Shown in pieces: positions 46,582 to 58,481 of a stretch of DNA of 64,000 nt (its first letter is position 1; each line of letters opens with the position of its first letter). The notes under the pieces are model-generated. The model was given only the letters and a program-made list of their open reading frames with translations. It was not told the DNA's origin and did no database searches. The stretch spans positions 930,001 through 994,000 of the forward strand of contig JACPYL010000010.1 in assembly GCA_016196065.1 (NCBI GenBank). Reading direction: 5' to 3'. The DNA comes from Acidobacteriota bacterium (GTDB lineage Bacteria; Acidobacteriota; Terriglobia; Terriglobales; Acidobacteriaceae). Both the position numbers and the translations under genes were made by a program.

Positions 46582-47985
46582 ATGAGTGAGACTTGGAAAC
46601 AGTGGGAAGGGCAGGTCGTGAACGGGGAGTTTCCCCTTTTGCGGTACCTGGGAGGCTCTCGCCATAGCGCCGTGTTTCTCACCGGACGAAAAACGGGTGA
46701 TCCGCAGAAAGCAGCCATCAAGTTAATCCTGGCAGACCCGAGTAGCGCGGAGAATCAACTGAAGCGCTGGCAGCAGGCGGCGCAGTTGAACCATCCCAAC
46801 CTGGTTCGTGTTTTTGAATTTGGACGTTGCGAGATTGAGAGCACCTTGCTCCTCTACGTCGTCATGGAAGCGGCGGAAGAAGATCTTTCACAGATTCTTC
46901 CGGAGCGCGCTCTAACAGCCGGGGAAGAGCGCCAGATGCTCCCATCCGTCCTCGATGCGCTGGCCTATCTGCATGGCAAAGGGATGGTGCATGGGCGATT
47001 GCGGCCATCCAACATTCTTGCGGCGGGAGACCAGGTAAAAGTGTCCGCCGACACGTTGCGCCCTTCGGGAGAACGGGTCGTTTCGCCGGACGGCTGGGGA
47101 GGATACGATCCGCCTGAGTCGTCGAGCGGAAGATTGACGCCGGCATCGGACGTCTGGTCGCTCGCGATCACGATCGTGCAGACATTGACGCAGCAACGTC
47201 CGCTGTGGCATCCCGCAGAACCGGCAGCTCCGTCGTTGCCGGAAAATACGCCCGCGCCCTTTGCGGAAACTGCAAGACACTGCCTGCAAGTCGATCCTCA
47301 ACAGCGTTGGACGGTAGCGGAGATCACTGCTCGGTTGGCCGATGCTCCCTCGAAGCCCGCTGCCGCGGGATCACGATCGCAGCGAACTGCGGCCGAGAAC
47401 AACGGGAAGACAAAGCCCCCTAAACGAAGTTACGCCTCGGCATTGATTGCGGCGGTGGCGGTGAGTGCAGTGATCGCGTTGGTCGTGCTGGTCGGCAACC
47501 GGCACAGCAGTTCGTCGCTTCCTGCGTCGCCAGTAGAAGGTGATTCTCAGCGGGCAACGCCGGCTAGTGCAGCTCTTCCTGAAACTCAATCGCCTCCAGC
47601 AGAAAATAAGCCCAGTGCGGTGGTCGGTTCCAAGAAATCCACTTCGCACGGAAGCGCCGATAAGCCGGTCACGAGTGCGGCGGGCAAGGGAACGGTATTA
47701 GAGCGCGTCATGCCGCGCGTGTCTCCAAGCGCCCGGCGCACGATCGAAGGCAGGATCAAGGTGGCGGTGCGAGTGGATGTGGATCCTTCTGGGAAAGTGA
47801 CCGAAGCGAAGCTCGTTTCGCCGGGTCCAAGCCAGTATTTCGCGCGACTGGCATTAGAAGCGGCGCGGGAATGGAAGTTCTCTCCTGCACAGGTCCAGGG
47901 TCAGGCGGTCGCCAGCCAATGGAATTTGCGCTTTGGATTTCGGCGAAGCGGCACCGATGTCGATGCGAAGCCGATCGCTCCCTAG
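46582..47985 (+). CDS. Pseudokinase-TonB C-terminal fusion protein
   Basis: Residues 1 to about 250 have the protein-kinase fold (Lys47 in AAIKLIL, LLYVVMEAAEEDL, catalytic-loop region at 137-144). The loop reads HGRLRPSN where active kinases have HRDxKPxN: Gly replaces Arg and Arg139 replaces the catalytic Asp. The DFG position is about AD157T, so Gly is lost too. A glycine-rich loop is weak (LGGSRHSAV). A membrane helix (about 284-306, ASALIAAVAVSAVIALVVLVG), a Ser/Pro linker and a TonB C-terminal domain (VDPSGKVTEAKLVSPG, AREWKFSPAQVQGQ) follow. It may carry a cytoplasmic signal to the periplasm. The substrate or partner is unknown. Confidence 0.85.
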   Translation: MSETWKQWEGQVVNGEFPLLRYLGGSRHSAVFLTGRKTGDPQKAAIKLILADPSSAENQLKRWQQAAQLNHPNLVRVFEFGRCEIESTLLLYVVMEAAEEDLSQILPERALTAGEERQMLPSVLDALAYLHGKGMVHGRLRPSNILAAGDQVKVSADTLRPSGERVVSPDGWGGYDPPESSSGRLTPASDVWSLAITIVQTLTQQRPLWHPAEPAAPSLPENTPAPFAETARHCLQVDPQQRWTVAEITARLADAPSKPAAAGSRSQRTAAENNGKTKPPKRSYASALIAAVAVSAVIALVVLVGNRHSSSSLPASPVEGDSQRATPASAALPETQSPPAENKPSAVVGSKKSTSHGSADKPVTSAAGKGTVLERVMPRVSPSARRTIEGRIKVAVRVDVDPSGKVTEAKLVSPGPSQYFARLALEAAREWKFSPAQVQGQAVASQWNLRFGFRRSGTDVDAKPIAP

Positions 47986-48103: not shown

Positions 48104-48130
48104 GATAGACGAGGCAAGTGCCGTCTCTAC
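48104..48130. repeat. Diverged palindrome, GTAGAGACG family, copy 3
   Basis: This copy has AGACGAGGCAAG and CCGTCTCTAC in the same order as the copies at 4437 and 10277, with several mismatches. It overlaps the last codon and stop of the LuxR-type gene, so the repeat appears to have been fixed inside the end of a reading frame. Confidence 0.6.
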
Positions 48131-49161
48131 GAACTCGGCAAAGCTTGTCGTTTGCGACGCACCTTCTCGATTCTGCCGGCATCAGCTTTGCTGCTGGCGT
48201 TCTTCTGCCATGCGTCGGCGCGCCGCTCGGCCTCGGATCGTTCCTCAGCGGACATCTGCGGCATGAGACTTGTCTTGGCATTCTCAATCTGCCTTCGCAT
48301 GGCTGCTGTGTTTTCCTCGGACAGCAAGCACCACATATACGCAGCGATTCGGTCAGCAGGACTACCGTTCGTCCGACCGTAGTGTTCGGCCAATCGTAGT
48401 TGAGCCCAGGACTGTCCCGCCTCGGCTGCCTGGAGCAGCGCGGGGACGTCGTGGCCCTCCTCCTCTGAGGGACCCTGCTTGCGGGCCTGCGCACCGCTCA
48501 TGGTGAGGTAGAGCAATTCAGTACGGCTGGAAACGCCCAACTTGTCGAAAATGCGGAATAGATAATTTTTTACTGTGTGGGGGCTCAGGCTGAGCGATTC
48601 CGCAATTTCGCGGTTGGTCATGCCTCCCGCCAGATACTGCACGACTTGGCGTTCGCGGGCCGAGAGGAGTTCGAGCCCCTTGTGGTTGGTCGCACGCACG
48701 AGCGGAGAGTTGGCGAGAGCTTCGAGAGCATGCTCGAGTTCGACGCTGCGTGCCCATATCTGACCTTCATGAACGCAGCGGATGCATTTGCAGAGGCTCT
48801 CCAGCTGTTCGTGCTTGGCAAAAATTCCTCTGGCGCCCGCGCGGAAACATTCCAACACGTCCGCGGGGCGCGACGAGTCGAGCAGCAGGATACCTTTGAT
48901 CTGAGGCCGAAGGCCTCGAATTTCCCTCAGCACTTCGGTCCCCTGTCCGGGCTGATCGTCCAGGCTGTAGCTGATGATGGCAACATCGACCGGTACGCGC
49001 ACGACGGCAGAGAGCAATTCCGCGGACGACAAGGCCGTGGCGACGACTTGTATCCCCTGGTCGCTCCGCATCGCCTCGGCAAGAAGCTGGGTGTGGATGC
49101 GAGTGCTGTCGGCGACGACGATGCTGATAAAGTCCGCGGCTCGCAGGTCTTGGGACGGCAT
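48127..49161 (-). CDS. LuxR/NarL-type regulator with defective receiver and Sel1-like tail
   Basis: The 344-residue protein has an N-terminal receiver-like domain, a LuxR helix-turn-helix (LSARERQVVQYLAGGMTNRE, then SPHTVKNYLFRIFDKLG) and a helical C-terminal part (QLRLAEHYGRTNGSPADRIA, YMWCLLSEEN) like Sel1 or TPR repeats. In the receiver, the phospho-acceptor place (DVAIIS64YSL) holds Ser instead of Asp, and only Asp18 is left of the acidic pocket, so phosphorylation is unlikely. It is divergent from the exopolysaccharide locus, 667 bases away, and is a candidate regulator of it. Confidence 0.88.
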   Translation of the reverse strand: MPSQDLRAADFISIVVADSTRIHTQLLAEAMRSDQGIQVVATALSSAELLSAVVRVPVDVAIISYSLDDQPGQGTEVLREIRGLRPQIKGILLLDSSRPADVLECFRAGARGIFAKHEQLESLCKCIRCVHEGQIWARSVELEHALEALANSPLVRATNHKGLELLSARERQVVQYLAGGMTNREIAESLSLSPHTVKNYLFRIFDKLGVSSRTELLYLTMSGAQARKQGPSEEEGHDVPALLQAAEAGQSWAQLRLAEHYGRTNGSPADRIAAYMWCLLSEENTAAMRRQIENAKTSLMPQMSAEERSEAERRADAWQKNASSKADAGRIEKVRRKRQALPSS

Positions 49162-49418
49162 CAGATCTCCTGAATCAATATTTCCGTGGAGCCGGCGCTG
49201 CTACTGACCAGGTTCCAGCAAAGGATGTTCGCCACCGAATGCAAACGCTCTTGGTATCGCAAATTCGAGGGGAGAGCAGCAGAAAGCGGCTAAGCAATAA
49301 CCCTTAATTTGGCTTCCTGCTACTGCCCTGAGCGTACCATTGCGGGCAGCCATCTTCAAGAACTTGGTTTGCAACCTATGCAAATCGGTGCATAGTCGAA
49401 CGATTCGACAATCTCATG

Positions 49419-49796
49419 TTGACACAATTTCGTAATGTCGCAAGTTATTGCCAACGAGAGTTCCTGTGTGAGGCTCGGAAATAGGGTTTTTATATTCACA
49501 CAAAGTATTCATTATCAATGATATAAAGTGAATTTAGAGAATCTTCATCGGAGCAGCTAGCTCGGCCTCTACCACCCTCGTGTTAAGGTCTACCACTGAT
49601 GTGCTAAATAGTATTATCTCTGATCTAAAATTCTCATGAATAAGAAATAAAGACCTAATTATGATAGAGATGTTTATCCACGGGATTTTATACCACTTGC
49701 ACGGTATTGCAGGGGACTTTACCTTGAACCTGCGACCACGAAAGCCGAGCTGTAAAAGAACTCTCCCCCTGCGGTAACTCTCCCCTAAGAGAACCT
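49419..49796. other. AT-rich intergenic leader before the exopolysaccharide locus
   Basis: The gap from 49162 to 49828 is the longest without a gene. Its centre is clearly more AT-rich than the rest of the window (for example TAAATAGTATTATC and AATAAGAAATAAAG). It holds a TTGACA box at 49419-49424 without a good -10 at the right distance, a palindrome at 49509 and a near sigma-54-like pair near 49694. No open frame is convincing. It is probably the promoter and leader region for two divergent units. Confidence 0.6.
49509..49521. promoter_or_regulatory. Small palindrome TCATTATCAATGA
   Basis: Two 5-base arms flank ATC in the AT-rich leader between the LuxR-type gene and the NusG-like gene. 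It could be an operator. The evidence is only its symmetry and location. Confidence 0.25.
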
Positions 49797-49828: not shown

Positions 49829-50407
49829 ATGCGATGGGACCCAGAGGGCGAAGCTTTGAGTAGTTCAAATCAGGGAGTAGCCAGCGCGTTGTCGCCCGCA
49901 TCGGAAGGTGCGGCACTTTGCTGGTATGCGCTGCACACCCGCGCACGACACGAGAGAGTCGTCGAACATCGTCTCCGCGAGGAGGGTATGGAAACTTTCC
50001 TGCCCACGATTCGCGAGACGCATCGCTGGAGCGATCGCAAAAAAGTCGTCGATGTTCCTTTATTCAGTTGCTATGTGTTCGTCCGTTGCACCCTGAATGC
50101 GGATGATCGGACACGAGTGCATCGAGTGGACAGCGTTCTCGGATTTGTCGGAACGCGGGGCTCAGGTGTTCCGATTCCAGATGAGCAGATTGAAAACGTA
50201 CGTGCGGTTCTTTCGCAGACGACCCCTTGCCGGACTCATCCTTTCCTGAAAGTGGGGCAGCGAGTGCGGGTATGTGGCGGCGCCATGGACGGCGTGGAGG
50301 GAGTGTTTCTCTCCGAAAATGGCGACCATAGCCTGGTCATCTCTGTGGACGTGATCCAGCGTTCCCTGGCCGTGCGGATCGACGGCTATCAAGTAAAACC
50401 TGTCTAA
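49829..50407 (+). CDS. NusG-like (UpxY/LoaP type) antiterminator for polysaccharide locus
   Basis: Specialised NusG paralogues ride with RNA polymerase and stop early termination of long polysaccharide operons. The 192-residue protein has the NGN domain (WYALHTRARHERVVEHRLRE, FSCYVFVRC) and a C-terminal KOW-like part (VGQRVRVCGGAMDGVEGVFL). The ATG at 49829 has GGCGG upstream; TTG 49856 has GAGGG eight bases upstream and also fits. It is the first gene of the locus, as is typical for this class, and the leader upstream may carry its recruitment site. Confidence 0.9.
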   Translation: MRWDPEGEALSSSNQGVASALSPASEGAALCWYALHTRARHERVVEHRLREEGMETFLPTIRETHRWSDRKKVVDVPLFSCYVFVRCTLNADDRTRVHRVDSVLGFVGTRGSGVPIPDEQIENVRAVLSQTTPCRTHPFLKVGQRVRVCGGAMDGVEGVFLSENGDHSLVISVDVIQRSLAVRIDGYQVKPV

Positions 50408-50443: not shown

Positions 50444-51526
50444 ATGCATCAACCTGAAATCGAGCAGATCGGCGAAGAGCTGTACTTTGTCGCCGCGAGT
50501 CCCGCGACCCGCCGTTTGCGGACGCAGGCCGAACTGCTCTCCCAAACCGACGTTCCTGTGCTCATTACCGGCGAGGCCGGTAGCGGCAAGGCTACGGCTG
50601 CGCGGTTGATTCATTCGCTCTCCATTCGATCCAGTTTCCAGTTCACAAGAGTCAGCTGTGCTGCTCTCACTGCGGACATGCTGGAGAGTGAGTTGTTCGG
50701 ATACGAACATTCAAATGGCAATGGACGTCTCGAATCGAAGCCTGGCAAGTTCGAACAGTGCGCCAAGGGAACGATCCTGCTGGAAGACTTCGAAGCCATG
50801 CCTGGTCCGGTCCAACTCCGGTTGTTGAAACTCCTCCAGACCAAAGAATTCGTACGCTCCGGCGGGCAGACTCCGATCCGGGTGGATGTGCGCATCATTG
50901 CGTCGACGGAAGGCAATCTCGATCAGGCCGTCGCCGAAAAGCGAGTGCAGGAAGAGCTTTACTATCACCTGAGCGCATTCGAACTGCACGTTCCCGCTTT
51001 GCGTGATCGTCGGGAAGAAGTCCCCTTGCTGCTGGGACATTTCATGAACCGTCTGACGCGCCGCTACGGAGTACCTGCCCCTCATTTTTCGGGTGCGCTG
51101 CTCGACGCCTGCCAGCACCACGCATGGCCAGGAAATCTTCGCGAACTGGAAGTCTTCGTCAAGCGCTTCCTGGTGTTCGGCGACGAAGCGGCTGCGGTCG
51201 AAGAGCTTAGTTCGCATTCCCAGTCCGCGAACGGCACTCCCAGTCACAACGGCATTGCTGTGATTCACAATCACGTCAAGACCGGAAATGGCAGCGGAGA
51301 CGAGCAGTCGTCGCTGAAACTGCTGGTCAGGAATGCCAAGGGTGAGGCCGAACGCAGCGCAATTGCGCACGCACTCGAAGAGACTCACTGGAATCGCAAA
51401 GCTGCCGCCCGCCTGTTGAGCATCAGTTACCGGGCGCTGCTCTACAAGATCCAAGAGTACCGGCTTATTCCGCCGCATGATTCACAGCGGCTGCATCACT
51501 ACAATGGATTTCGTGAAGCAAAGTAG
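50444..51526 (+). CDS. Sigma-54 activator-like AAA+ protein, degenerate
   Basis: The 360-residue protein matches sigma-54 enhancer-binding proteins: Walker A GEAGSGKA at 43-50 and C-terminal Fis-type helix-turn-helix (AHALEETHWNRKAAARLLSI). But the GAFTGA loop is replaced by SNGNGR at about 90-95, Walker B reads ILLEDFE instead of LFLDEI, and the arginine fingers (FR..LYYRL) read VQEELYYHL. It probably cannot remodel sigma-54 and may act as a DNA-binding or ATP-sensing regulator. It has no receiver domain. It sits between the NusG-like gene and the export gene. Confidence 0.88.
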   Translation: MHQPEIEQIGEELYFVAASPATRRLRTQAELLSQTDVPVLITGEAGSGKATAARLIHSLSIRSSFQFTRVSCAALTADMLESELFGYEHSNGNGRLESKPGKFEQCAKGTILLEDFEAMPGPVQLRLLKLLQTKEFVRSGGQTPIRVDVRIIASTEGNLDQAVAEKRVQEELYYHLSAFELHVPALRDRREEVPLLLGHFMNRLTRRYGVPAPHFSGALLDACQHHAWPGNLRELEVFVKRFLVFGDEAAAVEELSSHSQSANGTPSHNGIAVIHNHVKTGNGSGDEQSSLKLLVRNAKGEAERSAIAHALEETHWNRKAAARLLSISYRALLYKIQEYRLIPPHDSQRLHHYNGFREAK

Positions 51527-51569: not shown

Positions 51570-52208
51570 ATGACCCTGAAACCGAATCCGTTTCGCGTCG
51601 TACTCACCTTCAGCCTGGTGCTGATGATTTCCGCCGCCGTTATGGCGCAATCGGATGCTGCGGCGCCAACTACACCGCCCGCAGCTGTGCAGGCTCCGGA
51701 TAAAGACAAAGGCCACTCCGACGACGCCTATATGATCGGCGCCAATGATGTCCTCACGGTCAATGTCTGGAAAGAGCCGGACATCTCGCGGTCCGTGCCC
51801 GTGCGGTCGGATGGCAAGATCTCTCTACCCCTGGCCGGTGAGTTGCAGGCGAGCGGACAGACGCCCCATCAGCTTGAGCAAGAAATCACGAAGCGTCTGC
51901 AGAGCTATATTTCTGATCCCGAAGTGACGGTGATTGTCACCGAAAGCAAGAGCCAGAAGATCAATATTCTGGGAATGGTCTCGCGGCCGGGCACGTATCT
52001 GTTATCTGGCTCGACGACTGTTCTCGATGCGATTGCGATGACGGGCGGTTTCAAGGATTTTGCGAAGCAGAAAGCGATCTATATTCTGCGCTCGAATCCG
52101 GACGGCACGCAGAAGCGATTCCCGTTCAACTACAAAGAAGTGATCAAGGGAAAGAGCCTGGAGCAGAACATCCGACTGCTGCCGGGCGATACGGTCATCG
52201 TCCCGTAG
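51570..52208 (+). CDS. Polysaccharide export protein (Wza-type, SLBB)
   Basis: Wza-type proteins form the outer-membrane/periplasm channel for capsule or exopolysaccharide. The 212-residue protein has a signal peptide (LVLMISAAVMAQ), the poly-export domain (YMIGANDVLTVNVWKEPDIS, VPVRSDGKISLPLAGELQA) and one SLBB-type part (KINILGMVSRPGTY). There is no lipobox cysteine, unlike E. coli Wza. The ATG at 51570 has GGGAGG eight bases upstream; the longer frame runs into the previous gene and is rejected. It is shorter than Wza, so the pore may need the barrel protein that follows. Confidence 0.9.
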   Translation: MTLKPNPFRVVLTFSLVLMISAAVMAQSDAAAPTTPPAAVQAPDKDKGHSDDAYMIGANDVLTVNVWKEPDISRSVPVRSDGKISLPLAGELQASGQTPHQLEQEITKRLQSYISDPEVTVIVTESKSQKINILGMVSRPGTYLLSGSTTVLDAIAMTGGFKDFAKQKAIYILRSNPDGTQKRFPFNYKEVIKGKSLEQNIRLLPGDTVIVP

Positions 52209-52211
52209 GGG

Positions 52212-53651
52212 ATGGCTATGAACATTCGACAAGTATCCATGTTGGCAGTGATGTTGTTGGGTAGTCAGGTCCTGACGCTCGGGCAGAACACGTCTCCACC
52301 GAACTCGGGCACCGACGATTCCCGATCGACGCCCGCTCCTGCGTTGACTGGAGTGATTGGAATCGACTCGCAGATCGGCGAAGAAGATACGAGCGGCAGC
52401 CTGCCCCAGATTCCGGCGATGCTGGGCGGACCGAGATTGTCGGTCGCTCTCAAGTCGGAATCGGAACGATCGAATTACCTGCGCGGCGGCCTCAACGTAG
52501 GCGCTAGCTACGACGACAATGCGTTACTGACTCCGCATGACGAACTCAGTAATACGACGTACTCGTTTTTCCCGAATATCAGCCTGGAGCAGGTTCATTC
52601 TCGCGTGCGCTGGACGCTGGGCTACGCGGCCGGATTGACGGTGAACCAGCGATTGTCGAGCCGCAACACGGGATCACATGGCTTGAATTTCGACTCGCAG
52701 TTCCGGTTGAGTCCGCATGTGAATCTGCGAGTTTCCGAAGAGTTTTCATTGACCAGCGGCTTCTTCAATCCAAGCGGCTCTGGCTTAGGAATTGGGAACG
52801 GTGGGCCGAACGCAAATCTGATTACGCCTTTGTCGCAACAGCGTTCATCTTCGACGGTGGTTGAAACCAACTACCATCTCGCGCTCAACGATATCGTCGG
52901 CGCGAGCGGGTCGTTCAACGATTTGCATTTCGGCGACGTCCCGACGGGTTTTGCGCTGGCCAACACGCGTACGGCCTCCGGTTCGGCATTCTGGCTGCAT
53001 GGATTTGGGAGAGACTGGCTCGGCGTCGACTACCGCTTTGACCGCGTGACTTTTGATTCGAGCGGAGACAACAGCGGAGGCGAAACGCGCGTACACAGCA
53101 TTTTGGCGGTCAACACGATTACTCTGCCGAATCACTTCACCCTGAGCGGATTCGCCGGCCCAGAGTACTCGCAGAACCAGGGCATTAATGCAGCGGGCGG
53201 GACGGGAAGTTCTCCTTCGAGCTTCAATGAATGGTCATTCTCCGGCGGCGTCGAAGCAGGCTGGCAAAAAGACCATACCGGCGTCGCCGTAGGCTACTCG
53301 CGACGAATTAACGACGGCGGCGGGGTACTTGGAGTTGTTCGTCTGCAGGGGGTCCATGCCGATATCCGGCAGCAGTTGTTGCCAGGTTGGGCTGTTTCCT
53401 TTGGCGCGAGTTACGGAAACAACAAATCGCTCACTATTCCTGTGGAGGGTAGTGCATCAAAGATCAATTCGGCATCGATCGGCATGGGATTGGAGCGCAA
53501 CTTGGGTAAGAGCCTTGCCCTGCGAGTTGGTTATGCGCATGATTTTCAGGAGCAGTTTGGCGGCACGAATCTCAGCCAACAAGGGCCGGCACACCGCAAC
53601 CGCTTTTCCGTTACGCTGGGATATCAGTGGTCCCGGCCTTTAGGACGTTAA
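52212..53651 (+). CDS. Outer-membrane beta-barrel protein of the exopolysaccharide locus
   Basis: The 479-residue protein has a signal peptide (MLAVMLLGSQVLTLGQ) and then alternating strands from about residue 90 to the end, such as VHSRVRWTLGYAAGLTVNQR, HFTLSGFAGPEYS and RFSVTLGYQWSRPLG, as in barrels of exopolysaccharide loci. It would be a secretion channel or part of one. It begins three bases after the export protein stop and its end is just before the chain-length gene (53654), so the genes are coupled. The family name cannot be given with certainty. Confidence 0.8.
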   Translation: MAMNIRQVSMLAVMLLGSQVLTLGQNTSPPNSGTDDSRSTPAPALTGVIGIDSQIGEEDTSGSLPQIPAMLGGPRLSVALKSESERSNYLRGGLNVGASYDDNALLTPHDELSNTTYSFFPNISLEQVHSRVRWTLGYAAGLTVNQRLSSRNTGSHGLNFDSQFRLSPHVNLRVSEEFSLTSGFFNPSGSGLGIGNGGPNANLITPLSQQRSSSTVVETNYHLALNDIVGASGSFNDLHFGDVPTGFALANTRTASGSAFWLHGFGRDWLGVDYRFDRVTFDSSGDNSGGETRVHSILAVNTITLPNHFTLSGFAGPEYSQNQGINAAGGTGSSPSSFNEWSFSGGVEAGWQKDHTGVAVGYSRRINDGGGVLGVVRLQGVHADIRQQLLPGWAVSFGASYGNNKSLTIPVEGSASKINSASIGMGLERNLGKSLALRVGYAHDFQEQFGGTNLSQQGPAHRNRFSVTLGYQWSRPLGR

Positions 53652-53653
53652 CG

Positions 53654-55243
53654 ATGGAAGAAGATTTTCAAGACAAACCAGCTGAGTTTCCTGAAGCACA
53701 CCAGATCCTCGGTTTTGTAAGCCGACGGCGCTGGCACTTCTTGCTGCCATTTTTTGCTGGCTGGCTACTGGTGTGGGGAATCAGTTGGTTCCTGCCGTCC
53801 GTGTACCGGTCGGGCACGTTGATCCTCGTCGAGCAGCCGGCTGTGCCGGAAAAGCTGGTGGCTTCCAATATCGACAACGATATTCAGCGACAGATGGACA
53901 GCATTTCGCAGCAGATTCTGAGCCGAACGCGATTGCTGCAGATTATCGATCACCTGAATCTTTACGCCGCCGATCGAAAACATAAGAATCCGGACGATTT
54001 GGTCGAAGTCATGCGCAAAGACGTGGAGATCGAACTCTCGCGCGGGGACGACCGTAAGCTTTCGGCGTTCAACATCTACTATTCCAACCGCGATCCGAAG
54101 CTGGCGCAAGAGGCAACCAACGAACTAGCCAATCTGTTCATCACCGAAAGCGAGGAGCAGCGCCAGGGACGTTCCGCGGATATCACGGGCTTCCTGCAGG
54201 ACCAGCTCGATCAAGCACGCCAGAACCTGGCCGAGCAAGAAGCCCGCGTCCGCGAATTCAAAGACAAGCATATTGGCGAGCTGCCTAGCCAGACCCAGAG
54301 CAATCTGCAGATCCTCGCTGGCCTCCAGACTCAGTTGCAGGCGCAGGAAGATGCACTCAACCGAGCCCGCCAGCAGAACACGTATCTGGAGTCCTTGGTG
54401 AGCCAATACAAGACCCTCGATCGCGGTACAAAAGCGGGAGAAGGGGGGCCGGTGGGGTTAGCGGCCATCGACAAGGATTTGGACCGGCTGCGGGCCCAGT
54501 TGGCCGATTTGAGCGCGCGCTACACCGACAAGCATCCGGACGTCCGGAAGACGAAGGAGCAGATTGCCAGCACGGAAAAACAGCGCGAGCGGCTCGCAGC
54601 AGAGATCAGCAAGCGCGGTAACGATGGAACTCCGGACACCAGCGCATCTCCGGAATTGAAAAGCGCGCCGATGCTGGAGCTCGAAAGCCAGTTGAAAGCG
54701 AATCGCGCGGAATTGGTGAACCGGCAAGCCTCGGTGCGGGAGTTTGAAGGCAAAATTGGCGAGTACCAGTCGCGCTTGAACCATGCGCCAGTGATGGAAC
54801 AGCAATTTACTGACATCACGCGCGACTACGAACAGTCCAAAGCAAACTACGATTCTCTGCTCGCCAAAAAGAATCAGTCGGAGATGGCGACCGACCTGGA
54901 AAAAACGCAACGCGGCGAACACTTCCGCATGCTCGATCCGCCGAATTTGCCGGTGCGTCCGGACAAGCCGAACCGGTTGCGGCTATGTGGACTGGGCCTG
55001 TTGGTGGGAATAGTATTTGGAGTGGTCATCGCGGGTGCGGTCGAGTTTATTGCCGGCAAGGTTCACACGGAACGCGAAGTCAAGAAGATCGTGCCTTTTG
55101 ACATTCTGGTCGAGATTCCAAACCTGCCGACTCCGGCTGAAGAAGCGGAGACGCGCCGCAGCAATTGGATTGCGGGGGCGGCGGCGGCGGTGATTCTGTT
55201 CGCCATTGCGGTTGGGTCGGCGATAACGTATTTACGCGGCTAA
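53654..55243 (+). CDS. Wzz/GumC-type chain-length determinant
   Basis: This inner-membrane protein sets the chain length of exported polymers. The 529-residue protein has a first membrane helix (FLLPFFAGWLLVWGISWFL) with the Wzz N-domain (PSVYRSGTLILVEQPAVPE), long coiled coils in the periplasm (about 180-400), a second membrane helix (LCGLGLLVGIVFGVVIAGA) and an additional C-terminal hydrophobic stretch. It lacks the fused kinase; the partner kinase is at 56278. The ATG at 53654 is taken as start. Confidence 0.9.
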   Translation: MEEDFQDKPAEFPEAHQILGFVSRRRWHFLLPFFAGWLLVWGISWFLPSVYRSGTLILVEQPAVPEKLVASNIDNDIQRQMDSISQQILSRTRLLQIIDHLNLYAADRKHKNPDDLVEVMRKDVEIELSRGDDRKLSAFNIYYSNRDPKLAQEATNELANLFITESEEQRQGRSADITGFLQDQLDQARQNLAEQEARVREFKDKHIGELPSQTQSNLQILAGLQTQLQAQEDALNRARQQNTYLESLVSQYKTLDRGTKAGEGGPVGLAAIDKDLDRLRAQLADLSARYTDKHPDVRKTKEQIASTEKQRERLAAEISKRGNDGTPDTSASPELKSAPMLELESQLKANRAELVNRQASVREFEGKIGEYQSRLNHAPVMEQQFTDITRDYEQSKANYDSLLAKKNQSEMATDLEKTQRGEHFRMLDPPNLPVRPDKPNRLRLCGLGLLVGIVFGVVIAGAVEFIAGKVHTEREVKKIVPFDILVEIPNLPTPAEEAETRRSNWIAGAAAAVILFAIAVGSAITYLRG

Positions 55244-55248
55244 ACGAC

Positions 55249-56244
55249 TTGTATAAAACTTTCTACAATTTGAAGCTGAACCCGTTCGAGATCACACCGG
55301 ACCCATCGTTCCTGTTCTCGACCTCGCGCCACAACGAAGCCTTGGCTTCGCTCTACTACGGTGTGCGGGCGCGCAAGGGGTTCGTGGTCCTGACCGGCGA
55401 AGTCGGTACGGGCAAGACCATGCTGGTGCGCTGTGTGTTGGAATTACTGCGCCGCACCGGTGTCGCGTTTGCATACGTTTTTAATCCCAGTTTGTCGGCG
55501 TTGGAATTCATCCGCTACATCGCGAGTGATTTTGGACTGCCCGTTGCCGGCAAGGCGAAAGACGAGCTGGTTTTGTCGCTTAGCTCGTTTTTGGTGGAGA
55601 GGCACCAGCGCAAGTTGTCCACTTTGCTAGTGGTCGACGAAGCGCACCATCTGTCTCCGGAATTGCTGGAAGAAGTTCGGCTGCTCACGAACCTGGAAAC
55701 TACGCAACAGAAACTGCTGCAAATCGTCCTGGCTGGCCAGCCTGAGCTCGACGAAATGCTCGACTCGTTCGAACTTCGTCAGATCAAGCAGCGGATTGCG
55801 TTGCGTTGTCATCTTGAGCCACTCAATCTGGAAGAGACGCGTGGATACGTGCAGAGGCGTTTGCAGATCGCAGGCGTTGCGCCCGACACCACCATTTTTT
55901 CGGAAGCGTCTGTCAGCGCGATTTTCAAACACTCCAACGGCTTTCCGAGGCTGATCAACACCATCTGCGAAAACGCGCTTCTCTCTGGATATGGCAGGCG
56001 TGCGGCAGTGATCCCGGGAGAAATCATTGACGAGATCGCGCAGGACCTTCGACTCGGCGTAGTCGTGACGCGTGGCGAAAAGAAAAATAGCGCAGCGTCC
56101 GCAACTAAGGAAGCCAAGGAACAGGAAAAAGACGAGTTGTTGCGCGCCGTCAAGACTCTGCTCGAACTGCACGACTATTTGCAGGATATGAAGACTGCCG
56201 AGAAGGCGAAGGAAGAAGCGGTTGTCATTCGCAGGCCTTACTAA
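55249..56244 (+). CDS. ExeA-type AAA+ ATPase of the exopolysaccharide locus
   Basis: The 331-residue protein has the family N-terminus YKTFYNLKLNPFEITPDPSF, Walker A GEVGTGKTM and Walker B TLLVVDEAHHLS, then a helical C-terminus. Such ATPases occur next to exosortase and polysaccharide export genes and may energise or sense assembly. The TTG at 55249 is chosen because it gives the family N-terminus; a longer frame overlaps the chain-length gene. It starts 6 bases after that gene and ends 34 bases before the tyrosine kinase. Confidence 0.88.
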   Translation: MYKTFYNLKLNPFEITPDPSFLFSTSRHNEALASLYYGVRARKGFVVLTGEVGTGKTMLVRCVLELLRRTGVAFAYVFNPSLSALEFIRYIASDFGLPVAGKAKDELVLSLSSFLVERHQRKLSTLLVVDEAHHLSPELLEEVRLLTNLETTQQKLLQIVLAGQPELDEMLDSFELRQIKQRIALRCHLEPLNLEETRGYVQRRLQIAGVAPDTTIFSEASVSAIFKHSNGFPRLINTICENALLSGYGRRAAVIPGEIIDEIAQDLRLGVVVTRGEKKNSAASATKEAKEQEKDELLRAVKTLLELHDYLQDMKTAEKAKEEAVVIRRPY

Positions 56245-56277
56245 GCTGCTGACTGAGGTCATTCAACAAGACTAACT

Positions 56278-57177
56278 ATGAGCCGTATATTTGATGCACT
56301 CAAGCGGTCCGAAACGGAACGGTGGGGCAGCGATCTGCTGACGCCTCCCGAGTCAGTGAAAGAACTGCTTGAAGCAGCTGAAAGCCGTCGCGCACCGTTT
56401 CACGTCGAGACACTAGAGTCGCCAGCAGCGGTCGCGCCGCCAGAGGCATTTTCTCTGGAATCGCTTCCCACGATGAGGCCTGCTCCGTTGCCGGATGCCC
56501 GCCTGATCTGCCTTACTGACCCAGGAAGTCTAGGTGCTGAAAAATTCCGCGTTCTGGGACTGAAGCTTCGCAACCTTCGCGAGCAACGTAAACTCAAGCG
56601 GATCGTTGTTACCGGCACCGCCCCTGAGGAAGGGAAGAGCTTGGTGGCGGCCAATCTGGCTCTCAACCAATCGCGCAGCAAGATATTGAAAACACTGCTC
56701 GTGGACGGGGATTTTCGCCGTCCGATGGTAGCCAAGCGCTTTGGAGTTGGAACCCTATTGCCCGGGCTGAGCGAGTGTCTGCGCGGCGAGAAGCAGCTTT
56801 CTGACGTCGTTTACCGGCTTGAGGGGACTGGGCTTTCCATCCTTCCGGCTGGCATGGCTCCGGAAAACCCGCTCGAACTGATGCAATCAGGGCGGTTGCT
56901 TGAGTATCTTGACCGATTGGGAACAGTTTTCGATTGGATCATTATTGATACCCCCCCGCTCTTTCCGCTGGCGGATACGACCTTTTGGATGAAAATGTCC
57001 GATGGTGTCTTGTTCGTCGTCCGCGAGGGAGTTACAGAGCGCAAAACTTTGCAGCGTGCGGTAGATACGCTAGATCGCGCAAGCTTGATTGGAGTGGTGG
57101 TAAATAGTTGCACCAGTGGACGTGAACACAAATACTATTATTCCAGATACGGACAAGATGCGGTAAAATCCGAGTAG
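56278..57177 (+). CDS. BY-kinase (CpsD/CapB type tyrosine autokinase)
   Basis: Bacterial tyrosine kinases of this type control chain-length assembly. The 299-residue protein has Walker A GTAPEEGKSLVAANLAL, A' LLVDGDFRRP and Walker B WIIIDTPPLFPLADT. The C-terminal cluster KYYYSRYGQ is the expected autophosphorylation site. The N-terminus MSRIFDALKRSE is typical of the soluble partners of Wzz proteins. It works with the chain-length protein at 53654 (inference from family). Confidence 0.92.
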   Translation: MSRIFDALKRSETERWGSDLLTPPESVKELLEAAESRRAPFHVETLESPAAVAPPEAFSLESLPTMRPAPLPDARLICLTDPGSLGAEKFRVLGLKLRNLREQRKLKRIVVTGTAPEEGKSLVAANLALNQSRSKILKTLLVDGDFRRPMVAKRFGVGTLLPGLSECLRGEKQLSDVVYRLEGTGLSILPAGMAPENPLELMQSGRLLEYLDRLGTVFDWIIIDTPPLFPLADTTFWMKMSDGVLFVVREGVTERKTLQRAVDTLDRASLIGVVVNSCTSGREHKYYYSRYGQDAVKSE

Positions 57178-57332
57178 TTTCCCCCCTTCAGCCGCGACGC
57201 TGATCGTAAAATTTCAGCCTGGTTGTCCCCCACCCGGGTTAGTAAAGTCCTTCCCCCAATTGCATCCGTGCCCACTTGGCAGCGGCTTTGAGCCGCAGGC
57301 CTGCGTGGCTTTCAACACGAGGAGTGCGACCC

Positions 57333-58481
57333 GTGGCATCGACGACGACAAGACGGCTATCAACTGATCGATCTGTCCGGTCACAGAATCCGGCTCCAAC
57401 CAGCGAGATCCTGACCGAGGACATCTTTCGACGCATGATCTCCCTGGAACGGAAGCGTAGTGAGCGCACGCAGCGACCGTTTGTTCTTCTCCTTATGGAC
57501 ACGGGCCGGAACTTGCCTACCGAAAAGAACGGACGTATTCTGCTGGAGATTCTCAATGCCCTCCAGGCTGCGACGCGCGAAACCGACGTCATGGGATGGT
57601 ATGAACCAAATTCCGTCGTGGGCGTGATGTTCACCGAAATCACTCCCGACAACAACCTTATTCTGAGCACGATTCTTTCGCGTATCAGTGATGTGTTGCG
57701 CGGCCGCTTGACCAACGAGCAGTTCAGCCAGATCAAGTTTTCATTTCATTTGTTTCCGGAGGAGTGGGATCCGACCAATCCAGAACGGCCCAGCAATCCG
57801 ACGCTCTATCCCGACTTACATGAACGCAACGGTTCCAACTGGTTGAGCCGCGGCATCAAGCGCTTAATGGACGTTAGTGGCAGCCTGGTTCTACTGCTGC
57901 TGTTGTCGCCGGTGTTTTTCATCATTGCAGCAGCCATTAAATTAACTTCCCGTGGGCCGATCCTATTCAAGCAGCAGCGCGTTGGCGAGCATGGAACTCC
58001 ATTTACATTTCTTAAGTTTCGTTCCATGTACGTCAACAACGATGCGAGTAAGCACAAGGAATACGTACGCCAGTTGATTGCCGGGCAGGCCGAAAAGAAT
58101 CCGGCGAATGGAAGCGAGGAAGGGATATTCAAACTAACCAACGATCCCCGCATCACCCGTGTCGGATCGTTTCTGCGCCGTACGAGCCTCGACGAGTTGC
58201 CGCAATTCTTCAACGTGTTGCGTGGAGAAATGTCACTCGTTGGACCGCGTCCGCCGGTGCCGTACGAAGTGGAAGCCTATGCGACCTGGCATCGGCGCCG
58301 CTTGCTGGAAGCGAAGCCCGGAATCACGGGATTGTGGCAAGTCCAAGGACGCAGCAGAGTCGGGTTTGATGACATGGTCCGCTTGGATCTCCAGTATGCA
58401 CGCCTCAGTTCTCCGTGGCTCGATGTGAAGATTCTTCTACAAACCCCCAAAGCGGTTATCGCTGGAAACGGCGCCTGCTAG
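57333..58481 (+). CDS. Sugar-phosphate transferase (WbaP/WcaJ type) with N-terminal GGDEF-like part
   Basis: This integral membrane enzyme places the first sugar-phosphate on undecaprenyl phosphate. The C-terminal 200 residues have the membrane helix GSLVLLLLLSPVFFIIAAAI, RSMYVNND, RRTSLDELPQFFNVLRGEMS and SLVGPRPPVPYE with the KPGITGLWQVQGRS motif. Before it, about residues 30-170 form an unusual domain (DIFRRMISLERKRSERTQRP, VLLLMDTGR, ATRETDVMGWYEPNSVVGVM) that resembles a GGDEF fold without the active motif. The GTG at 57333 has AGGAG nine bases upstream; TTG 57276 is less likely. Confidence 0.88.
   Translation: MASTTTRRLSTDRSVRSQNPAPTSEILTEDIFRRMISLERKRSERTQRPFVLLLMDTGRNLPTEKNGRILLEILNALQAATRETDVMGWYEPNSVVGVMFTEITPDNNLILSTILSRISDVLRGRLTNEQFSQIKFSFHLFPEEWDPTNPERPSNPTLYPDLHERNGSNWLSRGIKRLMDVSGSLVLLLLLSPVFFIIAAAIKLTSRGPILFKQQRVGEHGTPFTFLKFRSMYVNNDASKHKEYVRQLIAGQAEKNPANGSEEGIFKLTNDPRITRVGSFLRRTSLDELPQFFNVLRGEMSLVGPRPPVPYEVEAYATWHRRRLLEAKPGITGLWQVQGRSRVGFDDMVRLDLQYARLSSPWLDVKILLQTPKAVIAGNGAC

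Follow-up and report, generated by a model that had tools for sequence, protein, structure and literature searches.

The window analysed here is a stretch of 64,000 nucleotides of DNA from a soil acidobacterium, and the gene at positions 50,444 to 51,526 on its forward strand encodes a bEBP-like protein in which GAFTGA is missing. With a probability of about 0.58, this protein is a regulator that binds DNA and controls the exopolysaccharide operon in which its gene lies, was derived from an NtrC-type sigma-54 activator by stepwise dismantling and is uncoupled from sigma-54. Its sequence retains the AAA+ fold along with Walker A, sensor II and the Fis HTH; what it has lost is the loop that contacts sigma-54, the Walker B pair and the arginine fingers. 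Comparison of alignments and trees within one bacterial family suggests that GAFTGA was lost at least three times at the same operon position. Sigma-54-deaf bEBPs are an already known kind of protein, and what is new here is that the loss recurs at a single operon position.

A GAFTGA-less protein between upxY and wza

The gene lies between upxY and wza, which agrees with the first-pass annotation in placing it within a polysaccharide locus. The genes around it are the following.

48127..49161, minus strand: LuxR-type response regulator, divergent from upxY, with Ser at the phospho-acceptor position of its receiver
49829..50407, plus strand: UpxY-family NusG-like antiterminator, the gene before the EBP (NF033644, 125.5 bits, cut-off 100)
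50444..51526, plus strand: GAFTGA-less bEBP-like protein of 360 aa, with AAA+ domain, lid, linker and Fis-type HTH and without an N-terminal sensor
51570..52208, plus strand: polysaccharide export protein (Wza-like), following the EBP; its start is placed at the Met where conservation begins, instead of at the ORF-list ATG at 51477
52212..58481, plus strand: remaining export module of five genes, from a beta-barrel-like protein to a sugar transferase

Judging from gene order and strand, the genes upxY, EBP-like gene, wza, beta-barrel-like gene, chain-length determinant, ATPase, autokinase and sugar transferase probably form one operon. The first gene of the export module encodes an uncharacterised protein with no Pfam match that is beta-barrel-like by eye, the chain-length determinant is XrtA-type (TIGR03007 above its cut-off), and the XrtA-type ATPase and the tyrosine autokinase both fall below their NCBIfam cut-offs. 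"XrtA-type" is a label by similarity, as none of the ATPases in the family and phylum searches passed the family's curated cut-off. Beyond the sugar transferase, which ends the module, lie nucleotide-sugar genes and a glycosyltransferase. The receiver of the divergent LuxR-type regulator is degenerate, with D-S where an acidic pair is expected.

Within the EBP-like protein, the signature positions are distributed as follows.

50570..50593, plus strand: Walker A GEAGSGKA, residues 43-50, kept
50711..50728, plus strand: L1 loop SNGNGR, residues 90-95, replacing GAFTGA
50783..50788, plus strand: Walker B acidic pair E114-D115, replacing D-E
50948..50950, plus strand: first arginine-finger position, Q169
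50966..50968, plus strand: second arginine-finger position, H175
51341..51469, plus strand: HTH_8 region, residues 300-342; WNRKAAARLLSISYRALLYKI, similar to two canonical EBPs of the same genome

Pfam assigned Sigma54_activat (156 bits), AAA_lid_14 and HTH_8 to the protein. A structural model built from nine sequences (pLDDT 79.7, pTM 0.65) matched EBP structures (NtrX, Z 29.2; FleQ, 28.2; VpsR, 26.3) over residues 8-260, the extent of the fold match, and the HTH assignment rests on Pfam. The statement that the fold and the Fis-type domain are kept was therefore borne out. The start codon is supported because Met1 is invariant in the 13 aligned members of the protein's clade.

Alignment to canonical EBPs placed FGYEH-SNGNGR where these have FGYE(A/K)-GAFTGA, LLEDF where they have LLDEI, and VQEELYYHL where they have LREDLYYRL, so that both finger arginines are gone. 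The alignment thus confirms the three changes named in the first-pass annotation (SNGNGR for GAFTGA, LLEDF, and HL in the finger region), and adds to them the loss of the first arginine finger and the absence of a receiver domain: Response_reg of Pfam has no match in the protein, and the receiver of its relatives is missing. The sensor II motif GNLRE is present, and with the GxxGxGK of Walker A and the sensor II R the ATP-binding residues are preserved. All of the NCBIfam matches listed (25 of 26) were below their cut-offs and were mostly sigma-54 regulators; TIGR02915 (PrsR) scored 208.9 bits against a curated cut-off of 502.6. Judged by its motifs, the protein should be unable to act as a normal sigma-54 open-complex activator, and the annotation "sigma-54-dependent regulator" is likely wrong for its group.

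The other EBPs of the window genome are different in this respect. All 25 other strong PF00158 matches carry a GAFTGA-type loop, the most divergent being LSFPGA (L020); these counts cover strong matches, four weak ones (21-36 bits) being left unscored. The only two without such a loop are the window EBP and a split match (L027/L029), each directly upstream of wza. The latter is part of the genome's second XrtA-type polysaccharide locus (L084; C10 about 1,106,000, about 1098000-1115000), which lies outside the window, and its EBP L027, directly before wza, has the loop deleted. The canonical L022 (C25:338479-339504) is 49% identical to the window protein. L022 and a further canonical EBP, L016, lie near each other in L083 (C25:330000-349000), and the reading frames between them are histidine-kinase-like and PilZ-like by eye.

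Orthologues and recurrent loss of the loop

The orthologue search covered 23 same-genus genomes besides the window genome. There are 12 full orthologues, 58-84% identical to the window protein, from 11 same-genus genomes and 1 genome of another genus of the family; a thirteenth (G021) is partial, starts 3' of the loop and is not among the 12. GAFTGA is absent in all 12, and all 12 keep the gene order in which a divergent LuxR-type regulator gene is followed by upxY, the EBP and wza. Identity within the 13-member clade is 88% for Walker A, 95% for sensor II and 84% for the HTH, compared with 74% for the whole protein and 49% for the L1 loop (residues 89-96); the tail, the loop and the linker are the least conserved parts. 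Thus the L1 loop looks as if it was released from constraint, and the ATP and DNA parts do not.

The reading frame is open in all 13 clade members, and dN/dS was 0.13-0.23 in the eight closest pairs. The window protein is in none of these pairs; its dS is at or close to saturation. The values show purifying selection on the closest pairs of the clade. Decay of the gene into an activator remnant would be compatible with the loss of the loop, the fingers and the Walker B order and with the low conservation of tail, loop and linker. This explanation was already disfavoured and we consider it highly improbable: the 13 open frames, the conserved place, the low dN/dS and the conserved Walker A, sensor II and HTH stand against it, and purely local decay is ruled out by the loop loss shared by all 12 orthologues together with the conserved place and the dN/dS values. 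The window protein looks more like a repurposed regulator than a broken gene.

The three changes are listed side by side in the first-pass annotation, and all are indeed found in the window protein, but they did not arise together: GAFTGA is missing clade-wide, and the changes in fingers and Walker B are scattered. The first finger is lost in 12 of the 13 members (window included), loss of the second finger is confined to the window protein and the 84% orthologue, the Walker B pair is variable, and the combination of Walker B ED with the H finger is common only to the same two proteins.

Loci of the same kind were collected from an XrtA ATPase search (family genomes, 75 of 120; phylum genomes, 69 of 149), and 80 chosen upstream regions were fetched. 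Among these, wza was found in 61, of which 43 have a scorable EBP directly before wza, 16 have no EBP there and 2 have a cut or fragmentary one. Together with the window, L084 and 13 further loci, the 43 make up 58 scored wza-linked EBPs, for which adjacency to wza was the selection criterion. Seven EBP matches were dropped: L116 (cut), L164 (fragment), the second piece of L125, L063 (the same protein as L126), and weak matches in L120, L138 and L149 (37-56 bits). The first-pass annotation had proposed a comparison with homologues from other exopolysaccharide loci, and the same GAFTGA loss as in the 12 full orthologues was seen there, in 51 of the 58 scored EBPs of the family, spread over three separate clades. 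Outside the family, in 12 regions from 11 genomes (L152-L155, L157-L163, L165), neither an EBP nor wza was detected, so that these regions carry little weight for the spread of the trait.

The loci were divided into three types, our own classes based on the tree and on locus order. In type I (n=27), which mostly has the order upxY-EBP-wza, the loop is lost in 24, and the remaining three carry GAFTGA (L112), GAFPGA (L120) and GEFTAT (L137); besides the window, all loci but L126 and L133 (cut) have a detected upxY (24 of 26). In type II (n=25; EBP-wza-chain length-ATPase), the loop is deleted or rewritten in 25/25. In type III (n=6), where a divergent second EBP is present in 5 of 6 (it was undetected in L147, which was grouped here), the loop is kept in 4 and lost in 2. 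An EBP pair similar to L022 and L016 adjoins wza in five type III loci. It had been argued beforehand that homologues of the same clade with an active GAFTGA would point to local decay. An exact GAFTGA does occur, once, in L112; the loss in 24/27 and the purifying selection on the closest pairs of the 13-member clade speak against decay.

In trees computed with the loop columns omitted, the three types form separate clades with canonical EBPs in between. The hypothesis of a single common loss, with all lost rows in one clade, was rejected on a 40-row tree (AU p 9e-96), with rows hand-picked from 83, GAFPGA and GEFTAT treated as lost and the loop columns omitted. A single loss joining types I and II only was likewise rejected on this tree (p 0.002). 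A single loss within type I alone was not rejected (p 0.187), and therefore several losses inside type I are not claimed. The fewest changes required were 6 on the 83-row quick tree, where GAFPGA and GEFTAT were coded as kept, and 4 on the 40-row tree.

Other motifs changed to different degrees. The loop-less type I rows keep the Walker B D-E in 13/24, the first finger in 12/24, and the second finger in 21/24; the Walker A lysine is present in 21 of the 23 in which it was scored; the type II rows keep D-E in 4/25, the first finger in 23/25, the second finger in 20/25, the Walker A lysine in 25/25 and the full GxxGxGK in 14/25. A separate set of 25 GAFTGA-bearing reference rows has Walker A in 25, D-E in 24/24 scorable and fingers in 23/23 scorable rows. 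Walker B therefore drifts more than the fingers in the loop-less rows, and the ATP-binding lysine is mostly kept.

In terms of origin, canonical EBPs such as L022 branch beside the type I clade, and a series is seen in the receivers: intact in the nearest canonical relatives, degenerate in sister proteins, and absent from the window protein. All 14 aligned canonical receivers have an intact acidic pair, phospho-Asp and Lys (a further canonical row, L060, has no receiver to align). In the 11 type I rows aligned for a receiver-like domain, a set that does not include L121, the acidic pair is gone in 11/11 and Lys is replaced in 9/11, with the phospho-acceptor Asp retained in 10/11. This distribution, which carries no dates, suggests as the likely order of losses that the receiver pocket was degraded, the loop was then lost, the receiver was deleted, and the fingers and Walker B followed.

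Promoters, upstream elements and the recognition region

No sigma-54 promoter above shuffle level was found upstream of the window upxY, where the best site in the 686 nt scanned scored 13/16 and shuffles reach 14; the sigma-54 scans used a general consensus with ad hoc weights. Three other elements were noted in this region.

49369..49383, no strand: inverted repeat TTGCA-N5-TGCAA, aligning with TGCA-rich sequence of orthologues
49591..49606, no strand: imperfect palindrome TACCACTGATGTGCTA, pattern TACCAC-N4-GTGCCA in 8/13 clade loci
49692..49711, plus strand: conserved upstream block ACCACTTGCACGGTATTGCA, with one exact match in the genome

The block CTTGCA-N5-TTGCA occurs in 12 of 13 clade loci, has no sigma-54 signature, and recurs in L112 as well as in five further type I loci. 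Genome-wide, ACCWCTTGCA-N5-TTGCA has one exact match, at the window, and with 2 mismatches 9 sites against 30 in the control. As a genome-wide operator, TTGCA-N5-TGCAA was unconvincing, with 8 sites against 4 in a reversed control. These conserved blocks may serve the divergent LuxR-type regulator rather than the EBP-like protein, a point against reading the latter as the regulator of the operon.

Across type I, a sigma-54-like site scoring at least 14 on the coding strand was present in 4 of 26 upstream regions, compared with 0.55 expected from dinucleotide shuffles. The four loci (14-15 of 16) are L078, from the window's own clade, L121, L137 and L145. Sigma-54 may therefore still act at some sister operons, which counts against an uncoupled regulator. 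These four sites, the presence of rpoN in the window genome and the intact AAA+ fold would also fit a protein that is a sigma-54 activator still and works through a different loop. Such an activator is most improbable: GAFTGA and the Walker B pair are lost together with both fingers, and no sigma-54 promoter was seen at the window operon.

The type II loci are different. A sigma-54 promoter scoring at least 14/16 was found upstream of 16/25 (0.40 expected from dinucleotide shuffles), and among the controls this score was reached in 0/25 inside genes and in 1/25 on the opposite strand; at least 13 was reached in 21/25 regions, compared with 2.90 expected and 4/25 in-gene controls. A dyad, GGGAAA-N4-TTTCCC, matched at 10/12 or better in 21/25 (0.10 expected from mononucleotide shuffles; 0/25 inside genes), a score that is not independent of discovery as the dyad was discovered in these same regions. 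In 19 of the 21 it sits 114-149 nt above the sigma-54 promoter. The loop-less EBP genes of type II are thus apparently transcribed from a sigma-54 promoter, which another EBP would have to open. Dyads of at least 10 were also found in 4/6 type III regions (0.35 expected) and in 0/26 type I upstream regions, and the dyad is absent from the window operon, where the best match is 9/12. The results so far speak against a joint loss of GAFTGA and the sigma-54 promoter, as type II keeps the promoter and four type I loci may keep it.

The sole exact copy of the dyad in the window genome (12/12) lies upstream of L027 in the second locus, where the sigma-54-like site has a modest score of 13/16; at this locus the dyad is a stronger sign than the promoter score. 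With at most 1 mismatch, the dyad has 28 sites genome-wide compared with 4 in a reversed control, possibly the regulon of EBPs with this type of HTH. One of them is about 3.5 kb past the window end (C10:997527). L127, which has upxY and wza and no EBP detected before wza, carries a 12/12 dyad upstream of upxY.

The recognition region of the window protein (residues 316-339) is identical at 19/24 positions to that of the canonical L016 and at 18/24 to that of the canonical L022, at 14/24 to that of L027, and at no more than 11/24 to those of 21 other EBPs of the genome, a comparison that excludes two EBPs of the genome. This similarity bears on the main rival to an uncoupled regulator, in which the window protein is an antagonist or partner in the sigma-54 network that damps or gates sigma-54-dependent exopolysaccharide expression through mixed rings or site competition with L022 and L016. 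The type II EBPs behind a dyad and a sigma-54 promoter, which another EBP should drive, would fit this explanation, and the hetero-oligomers HrpR/HrpS and VnfA1/VnfA3, as mentioned in part of PMC9542535, are a precedent. However, the window locus shows neither the dyad nor a sigma-54 promoter, the dyad is missing from all 26 type I regions, and the similar HTH may merely mirror descent; we consider the antagonist unlikely, although it is the leading alternative. More speculative, and in our opinion rather doubtful, is the wider idea that in acidobacterial exopolysaccharide operons the EBP directly before wza has repeatedly turned into a sigma-54-deaf protein that binds DNA and ATP, has a recognition helix like that of canonical EBPs in its own cell, and would be a built-in brake, a decoy of the operon's own activator that occupies the same enhancers or poisons mixed rings.

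Proposed mechanism and comparison with known regulators

In the reading that we prefer, an operon regulator uncoupled from sigma-54, the protein would bind ATP without productive hydrolysis, oligomerise at sites upstream of upxY, and tune transcription by a sigma-70-type polymerase, much like VpsR, HupR, TyrR or Caulobacter NtrC. Some observations were counted against it besides the four type I sites: L112 combines the same promoter block with a full GAFTGA, and the phospho-Asp is kept in 10 of the 11 degenerate receivers. A third concerns c-di-GMP, for which the FleQ arginine R185 is given as Walker A K180 plus 5 in the part of PMC10723142 that describes it. In a comparison with FleQ that covers the R185 position only, this position is R54 in the window protein and Q in its closest orthologue, which may also weigh against the proposal.

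A non-transcriptional role as an ATP-bound scaffold that docks on the export and kinase proteins of the operon is improbable. It would agree with the retained Walker A and the drifting hydrolysis residues, and, in the scored loci, with the adjacency of the gene to wza, although this was a selection criterion. It is disfavoured by the HTH, one of the best conserved parts, whose 84% identity in the clade points to DNA. The first-pass annotation had offered a choice between a repressor and an ATP-bound scaffold, and this choice is not established; known loop-less bEBPs also include activators at sigma-70 promoters (excerpts of PMC10274813 and PMC3162934).

Several known proteins share parts of this pattern. 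HupR carries a receiver domain. TyrR, DhaR and PhhR have ligand-sensing N-terminal domains and unrelated targets. According to the excerpted text of PMC3162934, bEBPs with a defective GAFTGA comprise TyrR, DhaR, HupR, VpsR and YplP, about 110 homologues show minor deviations, GAFTGA is altered in TyrR and DhaR, which depend on sigma-70, and PhhR is a TyrR paralogue. Like the window protein, TyrR, DhaR and PhhR are bEBP-derived (same excerpts). Caulobacter NtrC, which is loop-less and works at sigma-70 promoters (PMC10274813, in part), Rhodobacter capsulatus NtrC and HupR resemble it in having a missing or changed GAFTGA and acting at sigma-70 promoters (excerpts of PMC10274813 and PMC3162934). 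All three have receivers, unlike the window protein, in which the fingers and the Walker B pair are also changed.

The protein is also likened to VpsR of Vibrio cholerae (7v2b), which has the bEBP fold (Z 26.3) and no GAFTGA and controls exopolysaccharide genes independently of RpoN (excerpts of PMC3162934 and PMC5552954). VpsR differs in its N-terminal domain, which carries an aspartyl site; it binds c-di-GMP (PMC10274813, PMC5552954 and PMC4877007, in part). C-di-GMP-linked bEBPs that govern exopolysaccharide appear in the excerpts of PMC5552954, PMC4877007 and PMC10723142. PrsR (TIGR02915) is similar in being a bEBP tied to exopolysaccharide loci, acts with sigma-54 in proteobacterial PEP-CTERM systems, and has an activator site plus sigma-54 promoter that resembles the type II loci found here (excerpts of PMC1569441). 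It is a receiver-bearing sigma-54 regulator, whereas the window protein has no receiver and is below the TIGR02915 cut-off. L022 is close in identity (49%), in the recognition region (18/24) and in its neighbouring branch of the tree, but differs in carrying GAFTGA, DE, both fingers and a receiver whose acidic pocket is intact.

So far, VpsR and other loop-less bEBPs have been treated as scattered exceptions. At the wza-linked position, intact relatives persist (L112 and four type III loci), so that a natural series runs from active to sigma-54-deaf proteins, and this series allows direct testing of the role of a bEBP once promoter opening is lost. In the open-licence literature, no paper was found that pairs Acidobacteria with GAFTGA, and the open-licence titles and abstract openings listed contained nothing on sigma-54 or EBP control of acidobacterial exosortase or exopolysaccharide loci.

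Near the operon, the protein encoded at 46582-47985 on the plus strand combines two domains, a Ser/Thr kinase and a TonB C-terminal one (Pfam). Its relatives adjoin the same locus in L070, L073 and L077, with a weaker match in L080.
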